Part shown: positions 5,623-9,329 of the stretch, piece after piece
Layout of the letters: every line of letters begins with the position of its first letter
Position numbering within the stretch: position 1 is the stretch's first letter
Source: Trichocoleus sp. FACHB-46
GTDB taxonomy: Bacteria; Cyanobacteriota; Cyanobacteriia; FACHB-46
DNA length: 64,000 bases
Assembly (NCBI RefSeq): GCF_014695385.1
Contig: NZ_JACJOD010000030.1
Coordinates: forward strand, 186,001 to 250,000
Direction of reading: 5' to 3'
Notes under the pieces: generated by a model
Told to the model about the DNA's origin: nothing
The model's input: only the letters and a program-made list of their open reading frames with translations
Database searches by the model: none
Made by a program: the position numbers and the translations under genes

Positions 5623-6325
5623 CTTCATTAAAATGTCACAGAAACTTTTTATTTGAAAAGCGATCGCTTTACAGGTAGCTAAATATAGCTAAATTTTAGC
5701 GATCGCTTTGGCGCTTGAATTAGCAGATTGAGGATGAGGTAAGACCTCTCTGCTGTGCTAAGCCGATCCTAATTGAAGTAATTGAAATACTCTTAACTTC
5801 AGCTATTGAAGATAGCTAAAGATACTCTTTGAGCAGAACTATAAGAGCAATTTTTCAGTATTTCATCAGAGTAATAGAAGTACTAATACCAATTCTCCAA
5901 ATTCTATTTACAGATATTCGTAGAGGCGAACGACCGTTCGCCTACAGCCAAGCATTTGTAGCCTGATTTTCAGGAATTGGTATAAGAGCAGCAGGCTGGA
6001 AATAATTAAACCTCACCATTAGCGGTTACCTGTACTAATTTGACAACTTCATTTTGGCCGATTCTGGGCTTGAGTTAAGTCGGACTGCATCGCTAACCAC
6101 AGTCACTATCTATGTCTTTAGATAGGCTGCTGCCTATATCATCTATCCCTGTAGATTAGTTAAGTACTTACTGCTTATTGTTAAATTGTCGCTAACAACG
6201 CTTGGTTTTAGAGGGTGTAAAAAGTTTTGCTTAAAGCTGTATAAAGCAATATTTTGGGTGCATCTTCTAGCCAGGCGTTAAACGAATTTTATACAGTTTT
6301 TGACACCAAAAAGGAAGCAGTTGTA
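5623..6325. other. Long non-coding region upstream of the glycine-zipper genes
   Basis: About 700 bp without a supportable gene. It contains two HIP1 octamers about 40 bp apart within AGCGATCGCTTT contexts (around 5660 and 5700), the palindromic element described separately at 5886-5983, and an AT-rich stretch before the next gene that probably holds its promoter and long 5' leader. An in-frame ATG at 6254 exists, but the ribosome site AAGGAAGC favours 6326. Confidence 0.6.
5886..5983. repeat. MITE-like palindromic element, about 98 bp
   Basis: The ends are perfect 10-bp inverted repeats, ATACCAATTC and GAATTGGTAT. The centre (5920-5945) is a strong palindrome with arms GGCGAACG and CGTTCGCC plus a further GTA/TAC pair. 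No transposase is encoded. Terminal repeats plus a central hairpin are typical of small non-autonomous elements in cyanobacterial spacers. Only one copy is seen in this window. Confidence 0.6.
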
Positions 6326-7057
6326 ATGGCAGACAATTATCAATCTGTAATTCAGCCTGAGGAGAATATTTCTTCTGTAGGCACCGCACAACCCTACGCT
6401 GGCACAACAGAAAGAAGCGCAGATTATAGAGCAGTTGAAGTGCCAAAAGAGCCAGTCACCTATAGCCCTTCCACGGAAGCCAAATCTGTAGATAAAGCAA
6501 TGAGTCCCGCCTTGTCTAGAGCTTTAGTAGGCGGACTAATTGGTGCGACATTAGGCACATTGGCTGGCGCTTTGGCAGGTAGAAAAACCTCTGAAGGTGT
6601 TAATCATGCCATCAAAGGCGTTAGTAATGCTTTTAGGACAATCGGTGAAGGCTTAGGTCAAACTGCGAAAGGCGTAGGAGACGCAGCCAAGAGCGTCGGT
6701 GAAGGTGTAACTTATGCTGTGGTTGGTGGTAGTTCCGATGCAGCCAAAGGTATTGTTGAAGGCGCTAAGCAAGCAGGAATGGCGACAGCAAATGTAGTGC
6801 AAGCAACAGCAGAAGGCGTTAACGAAACGATTCAACGCGCAGCACATTCCATTGAAGTTTCTAGTGAATCTGCTAAGCAATCTATTACTGATGTAGCAGA
6901 GCAAAGTAAAGAGATGGTTAAGGACAACGCAATATCCACAAGTCAAAAGTTTGACAGCGTTGAAAGTGGATATGTTAGCCCTATTGACCCAGTATTTGAC
7001 CCCACTGCTAGTTCAGCTGATGCTTTTGATTCCAGCATTAGTTCAACTGGTATTTAG
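6326..7057 (+). CDS. Glycine-zipper protein with 18-residue amphipathic repeats (paralog 1)
   Basis: I do not recognise a named family. The 243-residue protein has a polar N-terminus (1-60), one Gly/Ala-rich hydrophobic segment (about 64-85, ALVGGLIGATLGTLAGALAG) resembling a glycine zipper, then six units of about 18 residues (92-200; one unit has 19). The units follow a pattern such as LGQTAKGVGDAAKSVGEG. Eighteen residues is five alpha-helical turns, so each unit should put the same face on a long amphipathic helix, as in LEA-like or apolipoprotein-like proteins. The acidic C-terminus is Ser/Asp-rich. The start follows AAGGAAGC. A shorter paralog lies 60 bp downstream. Inferred role: membrane-anchored stress or membrane-shaping protein. 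Confidence 0.75.
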   Translation: MADNYQSVIQPEENISSVGTAQPYAGTTERSADYRAVEVPKEPVTYSPSTEAKSVDKAMSPALSRALVGGLIGATLGTLAGALAGRKTSEGVNHAIKGVSNAFRTIGEGLGQTAKGVGDAAKSVGEGVTYAVVGGSSDAAKGIVEGAKQAGMATANVVQATAEGVNETIQRAAHSIEVSSESAKQSITDVAEQSKEMVKDNAISTSQKFDSVESGYVSPIDPVFDPTASSADAFDSSISSTGI

Positions 7058-7102
7058 AACACCTATCTGAGACCTAATAGTAAACCGTTGTAATGAGCAA
7101 CC

Positions 7103-7113
7103 AAGGAGGTGAT
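7103..7113 (+). promoter_or_regulatory. Near-perfect extended Shine-Dalgarno
   Basis: AAGGAGGTGAT is complementary over 11 nt to the conserved 3' end of 16S rRNA. It sits a few bases before a GTG codon at 7118 and decides that start over the GTG at 7109, which lies inside the motif itself. Confidence 0.75.
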
Positions 7114-7117
7114 AACA

Positions 7118-7618
7118 GTGACTAACAGCGATCAGCTTTTAACTGAAGAGGAAGATAGCACTAGCAGCTTAGCAAAAGTGATCATTGGAGCCTTAATAGG
7201 CGCTACAGTAGGCGGCATTGCTGGTGCTTTAACTAATAAGCGTGTAGTCAGTCGAATTAATCAGACCGTCAAAGATGTTGGCAATGCGGCTAAAGATGCG
7301 GCTAGAGGGGTCAACGATACGGTCAGGGGAGTTGGAGATGCCGTGCAATCAGTTGCTATGGGCGTGAATGATACGGTCAGCGATGTTGGAGATGCAGTTA
7401 AAGATGCGGCTGAGGGTGTGAACGGTACTGTAAAAGACACATTTTATTCTGTCAAAGGCACGGCAGAAGATGTTAACACCACCGTCAAAAGTACTTTAGA
7501 CAGTATCAAGCACCAGTCTGAAGACATCATGGAATCTCCCAAAGATAGTATTGATGTGCCAGCTGAGGAAATGCTTTATAAGCTAGTACCCGTTAGCCCA
7601 AGTAAACCAGAGTCGTAA
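7118..7618 (+). CDS. Glycine-zipper protein with five exact 18-residue repeats (paralog 2)
   Basis: This is a 166-residue paralog of the upstream gene. It has an acidic head, a glycine-zipper segment (about 21-38, VIIGALIGATVGGIAGAL), then five successive 18-residue units at 47-64, 65-82, 83-100, 101-118 and 119-136. Each begins (V/I)N-x-T-V, for example VNDTVSDVGDAVKDAAEG, and the tail is polar. No unit has an insertion, so the helical register is strictly kept. Start: GTG after the extended Shine-Dalgarno. An intrinsic terminator follows at about 7705-7738, so the two paralogs probably form one operon. Function unknown; the layout suggests a membrane-anchored amphipathic helix. Confidence 0.78.
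   Translation: MTNSDQLLTEEEDSTSSLAKVIIGALIGATVGGIAGALTNKRVVSRINQTVKDVGNAAKDAARGVNDTVRGVGDAVQSVAMGVNDTVSDVGDAVKDAAEGVNGTVKDTFYSVKGTAEDVNTTVKSTLDSIKHQSEDIMESPKDSIDVPAEEMLYKLVPVSPSKPES
7256..7525 (+). repeat. Five 54-bp in-gene tandem repeats
   Basis: These are the DNA units encoding the five 18-residue repeats. They are diverged at the nucleotide level but keep the period of 54 bp exactly. Confidence 0.8.
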
Positions 7619-7874: not shown

Positions 7875-8540
7875 ATGGGCTGGTTACAAAAGCTTTTTCT
7901 GAAAAAACAATTTCAAGAGCAAGAACAGCCATCCACTGATTCCAGAATGCGAGATTCTAAGATGGTGCAAGTCGTGGCAGAAGAAGTAATTATGGCTGTA
8001 GCACACTGGTTAACCGCTGTCGTGAATCGTAGTTTACAGCCTAAGCCTGCTCCTCAACCCAAAGTTGAAGAACAACCTGTGGTCAATAACACCAGTGAGA
8101 CAGAGCAATTATTGCTGAAACTTAGCACCTTAGTAGAACGATTGTATGAACGCGATCAAGCAATGGCAGCTTTAGAAAAGCGGATTAATTCAATCGAGCA
8201 ATATCTGGGAGAAAAAGGTGCTTTGGGACAGCATATGAAAGACTCTCGTCAGGCGATCGCTACTCTAGACAACCGCCTTGATTGTGTGGAAACTTTGACA
8301 CAAGAAATTACACCTTCTTTAGAAAAAGCGGAACTAAATACCCAGCTAATTACAGTTTTAGAAAATCGCACTAAACTAGTGGAAAGCTTATTAGTTAGAT
8401 TTAGAGTGGTGCCCAGATCGGTAGGAGGAAACTCTCAAGCGATCGCTCTATTGAAAAATCGTGTTGAAGCTTTAGAAGCTGCTCAAGATTCAAGTCACGA
8501 AAACAGCCATAAAAGCGTACCTATTACCAAAGTTTTCTAA
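7875..8540 (+). CDS. Coiled-coil protein with four exact 31-residue repeats
   Basis: The 221-residue protein is not recognised. The N-terminus (MGWLQKLFLKKQF) is basic and amphipathic; residues 31-50 are a moderately hydrophobic helix; 51-75 is Pro/Gln-rich. From about 78 it is helical and repetitive. The pattern Q-x4-L-x2-R begins at Gln95, Gln126, Gln157 and Gln188, a period of exactly 31 residues, with instances QAMAALEKRINSIE, QAIATLDNRLDCVE, QLITVLENRTKLVE and QAIALLKNRVEALE. This should form a regular coiled coil or helical bundle. It lies downstream of the glycine-zipper pair but behind a terminator, so it is probably transcribed separately. Structural or scaffold function is inferred only. 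Confidence 0.72.
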   Translation: MGWLQKLFLKKQFQEQEQPSTDSRMRDSKMVQVVAEEVIMAVAHWLTAVVNRSLQPKPAPQPKVEEQPVVNNTSETEQLLLKLSTLVERLYERDQAMAALEKRINSIEQYLGEKGALGQHMKDSRQAIATLDNRLDCVETLTQEITPSLEKAELNTQLITVLENRTKLVESLLVRFRVVPRSVGGNSQAIALLKNRVEALEAAQDSSHENSHKSVPITKVF

Positions 8541-8762: not shown

Positions 8763-9329
8763 ATGTTTGATGAGCTATTCAAGAATTTGACGGGCTTGAT
8801 TGGTTCTAAAGTGCAGGAAGCTGCCAAAGAGCTTGAAAAACGTCTCGCTGTTCCTGAACCCGCAGAACCATTTACCCTCATCCGCCAATTCACGATTGCT
8901 GATTCAACCATCACAAAAGGAGGCATTGCGATCGTTGGGGAAAGCTGGCGGCTTGAAGCCTATGAAGATAATTCCCTACGCCTAATTGACAACGAGCCTC
9001 TACGAAAGGTCATTTTGTTCGAAATCGCCGAACCTACTGACCCAGAATGTGTCCTTGCCTGCCGATTTCAAGCAAAGGCACTAAATACCGAAAAAGCAAT
9101 CACAGTGAAGTTGGGTTTGTGTAAGCAAAGGCAAGTAGGCACATCGGCAAAAGCTTGGTCGAAAAGCGTTTCACCAACTGAAGATTTCCATTCGTTTGAA
9201 ATTCGCGCTCATTTCAAGCAAGACACTACCCCTGCTAAAGTTCAGGTCCTTATCGACTTTGAAAGTAGCGGCATTCTTGAGATTAGGAATGTCGAACTCC
9301 TGCAAGCTCCCGTGAAATTGCAAGCGTAG
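8763..9329 (+). CDS. Conserved-looking hypothetical protein, beta-rich
   Basis: The 188-residue protein is not recognised. It opens with a short helix (MFDELFKNLTGLIGSKVQEAAKELEKRL), then alternates short hydrophobic and polar stretches as in a beta-sandwich (FTIADSTITKGGIAIVGESWRLEAYED ... VQVLIDFESSGILEIRNVELLQ). The C-terminal part, with an acidic loop followed by ILEIRNVELL, resembles carbohydrate-binding-module-like folds that end in an 'I-x-N-V-x-L' strand; this is an impression, not an assignment. No signal peptide. It is monocistronic: flanked upstream by a terminator-containing spacer and followed within 12 bp by a strong hairpin terminator. Confidence 0.7.
   Translation: MFDELFKNLTGLIGSKVQEAAKELEKRLAVPEPAEPFTLIRQFTIADSTITKGGIAIVGESWRLEAYEDNSLRLIDNEPLRKVILFEIAEPTDPECVLACRFQAKALNTEKAITVKLGLCKQRQVGTSAKAWSKSVSPTEDFHSFEIRAHFKQDTTPAKVQVLIDFESSGILEIRNVELLQAPVKLQA

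Follow-up and report, generated by a model that had tools for sequence, protein, structure and literature searches.

What do two neighbouring genes do that encode a glycine-zipper helix followed by strict 18-residue repeats, and do their products belong to a known family? We analysed this locus within a window of 64,000 nucleotides (64 kb) from Trichocoleus sp. FACHB-46. A preliminary description, made from the sequence alone, had read the two proteins as membrane-anchored, very long amphipathic helices, as in LEA or membrane-coating proteins.

Architecture and repeat geometry of A and B

Genes A and B lie in tandem on the forward strand, 60 bases apart (Table 1). The span first given for them (6599–7525) takes in the repeats, but the genes themselves are larger. 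As first described, the two proteins are paralogues; their identity is 36–38%.

Table 1. Features of the A-B locus, in window positions
Feature	Position	Strand	Description
Perfect dyad ATAGGC-TGCT-GCCTAT	6122–6137		Just before the promoter-like element; from the alignment of upstream regions
Promoter-like element	6140–6189	+	Upstream of A; best site of the weight matrix
-35-like AGTTAA; -10-like ATTGTTAAA	6158–6163; 6177–6185	+	Spacing as fixed in relatives
Gene A	6326–7057	+	243 aa; ATG start; ribosome site AAGGAAG; between polar N- and C-terminal tails, a glycine-zipper helix and then an amphipathic repeat helix
A glycine-zipper segment SRALVGGLIGATLGTLAGALAG (GxxxG series)	6515–6580	+	Invariant glycines; hydropathy 1.75; low-confidence AlphaFold helix 61–82
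A repeat helix	6581–6907	+	Units of 18, 18, 19, 18, 18 and 18 residues
B ribosome binding site AAGGAGGTGA	7103–7112	+	Before the GTG start; read from the sequence
Gene B	7118–7618	+	166 aa; GTG start; acidic tail at the N-terminus, then the glycine-zipper helix and five units of 18 residues; polar tail with C-terminal YxLVP motif
B glycine-zipper segment SLAKVIIGALIGATVGGIAGAL	7166–7231	+	Invariant G24, G28, G32; hydropathy
B repeat helix, 5 x 18 residues	7244–7513	+	Periodicity; 0 gaps in 41 orthologues; spectrum peak at 100 degrees
B C-terminal motif Y-K-L-V-P-V	7577–7594	+	Alignment
Gene C	7875–8540	+	221 aa, coiled-coil-like protein; behind A-B here and in G185; cassette membership uncertain

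Compared to shuffles of B itself, the self-similarity of B is highest at lag 18 (z 9.0) and lag 36 (z 7.2), which confirms the five exact units that had been described (VVSRINQTVKDVGNAAKD / AARGVNDTVRGVGDAVQS / VAMGVNDTVSDVGDAVKD / AAEGVNGTVKDTFYSVKG / TAEDVNTTVKSTLDSIKH). For A, six units with one single-residue insertion had been proposed, and these can indeed be written from Arg86 onwards, though the signal is weaker: lag 18 reaches a z of 3.9 against shuffles and is outscored by lags 7, 4 and 11. The mean hydrophobicity of the B repeat peaks at exactly 100.0 degrees per residue, with an amplitude of 0.41 compared to 0.29 as the maximum of 300 shuffles. The hydrophobic face of B thus keeps to one straight line on an ideal alpha helix, in line with the earlier claim that the same residues face one side throughout. 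Because of its inserted residue, A fits a phase of 98.2 degrees (0.31) better than 100 degrees (0.17). The A family as a whole peaks at 98.5 degrees, and the family of a third paralogue, S, at 99.5 degrees.

In front of the repeats, both proteins carry a glycine zipper with GxxxG steps, which is the spacing of packing helices. In addition to the three invariant glycines of B, G69, G73, G81 and G85 are invariant in A, and G77 is nearly so. The best 19-residue Kyte–Doolittle hydropathy is 1.99 for B and 1.75 for A, and none of the 41 B orthologues falls below 1.72. The zipper is thus real and membrane-like, as first described; it appears hydrophobic enough to cross a membrane and probably inserts into one.

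AlphaFold2 places helices at residues 16–37 and 41–138 of B and at residues 61–82, 91–132 and 137–206 of A. Although these long helices match the expectation, they carry little weight since the mean pLDDT is very low (39.6 for B, 37.7 for A), and a role in coating lipids is therefore inferred from the sequence. The structure prediction proposed earlier as a check returned long helices and no globular fold, but with a pLDDT below 40 it neither proved nor refuted the model. Furthermore, the helix is long but less so than the wording "very long" implied: for B, the predicted 98 residues correspond to about 15 nm at the usual rise of 1.5 Å per residue.

Conservation of the A-B pair and its upstream element

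Homologues had been named as a check on the repeat register, and the register is kept in them. The 121-residue block of B that comprises the glycine zipper and the repeats is free of gaps in all 41 unique orthologues, and together with the peak at 100.0 degrees this shows that the length of the B helix is strictly kept. By contrast, with the first possible start codon taken as the beginning, lengths range from 248 to 636 aa in the A family and from 265 to 723 aa in the S family. Most B orthologues close with the motif Y-x-L-V-P-[VL], which may serve as a docking peptide. The fixed helix length and this motif suggest that B provides a set spacing and a docking site.

Using a threshold of E < 1e-40, we found B orthologues in 50 of the 192 genomes sampled from one cyanobacterial family. 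The four named loci are all from Nostoc, one of them from Nostoc flagelliforme. Among 292 genomes sampled across the phylum, the pair was detected beyond that family only in the FACHB-46 genome and in genome G185. In all 30 testable loci, which include the window and some of which come from near-identical genomes, A lies immediately 5' of B on the same strand. The surroundings of A-B vary between groups of genera; thus, the pair stays together while its context changes.

The paralogue S is located behind B in 10 of the 30 testable A-B loci, and in an eleventh locus whose contig ends before A. In these loci (L104–L112, L120 and L121), S follows B directly and its repeats contain proline. Another contig of the FACHB-46 genome encodes an S-like glycine-zipper repeat protein (G000:C34:65975-66901, L132). 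In the window, A and B are followed by gene C, which has no Pfam family above cut-off. Across the 292 sampled genomes, C adjoins A-B only in FACHB-46 and G185 and is absent from the others. These two genomes belong to different families, their B proteins are sisters in the tree, and two congeners of FACHB-46 lack A, which together suggests horizontal transfer or repeated loss. A mobile-element origin was rejected, as the plasmids, phages and viral contigs searched contain no homologue. For a 188-aa open frame at 8763–9329 (+), neither Pfam nor NCBIfam gave a match at E up to 1.

The regions before A have about 50 bp in common, with the consensus TATnTCTGnCTTnAGAnCGGTTAA-N13-ATCGTTAAATT; the core in the relatives reads GGTTAA-N13-ATCGTTAAA. 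The element is usually found about 80–115 bp 5' of the A start codon, with a spacing that is fixed in most lineages; in the window the distance to the start codon is greater, about 140 bp. We built a weight matrix from 20 homologous upstream regions, leaving the window out, and scanned both strands of the 64 kb. The best site, which is the one before A, scores 15.2, compared to -5.5 for the runner-up and to a maximum of 9.6 in a Markov control of twenty 128-kb sequences. Searching 20 genomes with a strict pattern gave roughly a single site in each genome, in most cases that before A; a wider regulon was rejected, since the other matches did not exceed a reversed-pattern control. In many cyanobacteria of the Nostoc type, A and B are kept as neighbours behind a conserved DNA element of their own.

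The element resembles the -35/-10 promoter of an alternative sigma factor and may act as such. SigJ recognises a J-box, GGGaAtacT (PMC6495340), which the conserved element before A does not resemble, and membership in the SigJ regulon was thus rejected. The perfect dyad just before the element can be regarded, speculatively, as a possible operator; in some relatives, the aligned positions are occupied by another perfect inverted repeat (TAGACT-GTAT-AGTCTA). For an RNA element upstream of A, we obtained neither an Rfam match nor an RNAalifold consensus fold.

Relation to known families and to lipid-binding helices

The first reading had found no obvious name for the proteins, and indeed no curated family takes in A or B. 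B scores 25.8 bits against the YtxH-like family PF12732 (cut-off 37.5; no match for A), 25.2 bits against GvpT/GvpP NF041669 (cut-off 80; A 11.3), 23.3 bits against apolipophorin III PF07464 (cut-off 36.3) and 19.8 bits against the phasin model TIGR01985 (cut-off 99.7). Neither protein has a Pfam LEA match at E up to 1, and no perilipin profile is matched; for B, both statements refer to the best 25 of 32 Pfam families. The repeats differ as well: the period of B is 18 residues and not the 11-mer of perilipins, and lag 18 (z 9.0) exceeds lag 11 (z 5.4), the unit of LEA group 3. With scores or repeats failing in each case, membership in the YtxH, GvpT, apolipophorin III, phasin, LEA and perilipin families was rejected. 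Low-complexity helices gather weak matches to many families. A sequence search of the PDB likewise returned solely weak matches, most of them to designed helical bundles or coiled coils (one of the hendecad type), the others to SHERP and apolipophorin III.

Some of these families nevertheless share features with A and B. In YtxH and GvpT/GvpP, too, a charged helical tail comes after a glycine-rich helix at the N-terminus, but A and B score below their cut-offs and have no gas-vesicle link, and to our knowledge neither family shows a strict 18-residue repeat. LEA group 3 and tardigrade heat-soluble proteins are repetitive and potentially form amphipathic helices, whereas LEA group 3 proteins have 11-mer repeats and no anchor. 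Apolipophorin III and the exchangeable apolipoproteins have amphipathic helices of similar hydrophobic moment and give weak profile matches. Apolipophorin III is the commonest weak Pfam match, found in 11 of 11 B and 6 of 6 S members scanned. It is, however, a secreted five-helix bundle, whereas A and B fall below its cut-off and carry a membrane anchor. A stand-alone S relative (L048, genome G005) exceeds the Pfam cut-off for this family with 66.4 bits.

The closest likeness in helix chemistry is analogous in kind. On the B repeat, a Val stripe at 20–80 degrees is flanked by Thr on one side and by Ala/Gly on the other, and the unit has conserved Asn (86% of position 6), Thr (86% of position 8) and Lys (80% of position 17). 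The B helix has a hydrophobic moment of 0.42, a hydrophobic fraction of 0.36, an aromatic fraction of 0.012 and a charged fraction of 0.22, and thus sits among the tabulated lipid-binding helices, for instance Plin3 (0.35/0.37/0.01/0.23) and ApoA-I (0.39/0.40/0.065/0.35) (PMC5889406). Its basic residues are centred at 179 degrees and its acidic residues at 237; the median separation of 55 degrees exceeds the maximum of 27 obtained with permuted charges, although the sequences scored are related and thus represent one inherited pattern and not 41 independent ones. Like Plin4 and Plin3, B has a long, repetitive and weakly hydrophobic helix that is rich in Thr, Gly and Val, with almost no aromatics, a conserved Asn and Lys on one side of the polar face (PMC5889406, PMC8064757). 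In Plin4, targeting and the stability of the coat depend on a conserved Asn-Gln pair and the one-sided Lys, which was attributed to contacts between neighbouring helices; when amide residues are changed or Lys is replaced by Arg, targeting is abolished or nearly so (PMC8064757). Perilipins differ in being eukaryotic, in their 11-mers (33-mers in Plin4) with a slightly extended 3-11 helix and in lacking a glycine-zipper anchor (PMC5889406, PMC8064757), whereas B has exact 18-mers at 100 degrees and no detectable homology to them. Weak hydrophobicity, few aromatics and segregated charges, all present in B, would thus point to a shared mechanism and not a shared family, and we regard the likeness to perilipin and apolipophorin helices as probable analogy, not kinship.

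A proposed anchored coat and its alternatives

With moderate confidence, we favour the explanation that A and B, and S where present, form an anchored coat on a lipid surface that zips up laterally. The GxxxG helix would insert into the membrane and pack with its own copies or with its paralogues. Behind it, the long, straight and weakly hydrophobic helix of Val, Thr, Ala and Gly would lie along the membrane or lipid surface, where the Lys stripe and the Asp/Glu stripe on different sides of the polar face, together with the conserved Asn, could join neighbouring parallel helices. The resulting protein layer would stabilise or shape the surface and may be protective, with A and B acting as a pair under a dedicated promoter. 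The gap-free block, the peak at 100.0 degrees, the helix metrics, the charge separation, the conserved Asn and Thr with their parallel in Plin4, the weak apolipophorin III matches and the tandem arrangement of A and B in varied neighbourhoods are consistent with such a coat. Against it stand the low pLDDT and the fact that A and B match lipid-protein models only below the curated cut-offs; furthermore, the conserved polar residues and the narrow Val stripe would be compatible with helix-helix packing, too.

The main alternative, which we consider possible but doubtful, takes up this last point: the helices of A, B and S would associate into a straight bundle or tether that projects from the membrane as a rod of set length and holds a partner via YxLVP. 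At 3.6 residues per turn, such a bundle is almost untwisted. The fixed, indel-free length of B, the conserved Asn and Thr together with the narrow Val stripe, the constant pairing of the paralogues and the predominance of designed bundles among the weak PDB matches would all fit, but A and S vary in length, and stable coiled coils do not usually have so little Leu and so much Gly and Thr. The spectrum of B rules out a classical heptad coiled coil, with an amplitude of 0.07 at 102.9 degrees versus 0.43 at 100 degrees. Stress protection in the manner of LEA or tardigrade heat-soluble proteins, i.e. disordered when wet, helical when dry and shielding membranes during desiccation or freezing, seems unlikely to us. 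The composition is low in complexity, poor in Cys and mostly hydrophilic, the low AlphaFold confidence is typical of disorder, and one of the four named loci is from Nostoc flagelliforme, known for desiccation tolerance (PMC12157317). Nevertheless, a membrane anchor suggests that the proteins stay in one place, the upstream element differs from the SigJ box, and presence of the genes does not track the trehalose gene TreZ, a proxy for desiccation (31 of 50 genomes with a B orthologue versus 83 of 142 without, p 0.74; a weak test, as the genomes share ancestry). Together with the lack of a Pfam LEA match, this speaks against the LEA comparison drawn initially.

Still less probable is a phasin-like coat of storage granules, i.e. 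polyhydroxyalkanoate or lipid bodies: apart from the TIGR01985 match of B there are weak Phasin_2 matches in a single B and a single S member, but the former is far under its cut-off and a transmembrane-like anchor is unsuited to a granule without a bilayer. An accessory gas-vesicle protein of the GvpT/GvpP kind would share the outline of a glycine-rich helix followed by a repeat helix, and GvpT is the best NCBIfam match of B (E 1.8e-5), though at 25 bits versus a cut-off of 80. In FACHB-46, however, gvpA is located on another contig, and presence of the genes is independent of gvpA (18 of 50 versus 59 of 142, p 0.51). Since G167 and G199 contain A-B without gvpA, a gas-vesicle role is effectively refuted.

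Within the favoured anchored coat, a more specific version can be put forward tentatively, and we think it rather improbable as a whole: a bacterial counterpart of perilipins, in which two or three paralogous anchored 18/5 helices, B of fixed and A and S of variable length, would assemble next to one another on the surface of thylakoids or lipids, with a promoter that serves hardly any genes but A and B. Glycine zippers and amphipathic helices are known kinds of structure; what is new here is the exact 18/5 geometry, the fixed length, the constant pairing of the paralogues and the dedicated upstream element. A literature search largely outside subscription journals found no description of the family. 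As a natural model of an alpha helix that is ideal and straight, the exact 18-residue repeat, free of indels across many genera, is unusually clean. Furthermore, with paralogues that are always paired and an upstream element of their own, both the function and the regulation of A and B can be approached directly. If the pair does coat membranes or lipid bodies, cyanobacteria would have an anchored analogue of perilipins that is open, in a laboratory Nostoc, to simple genetics.
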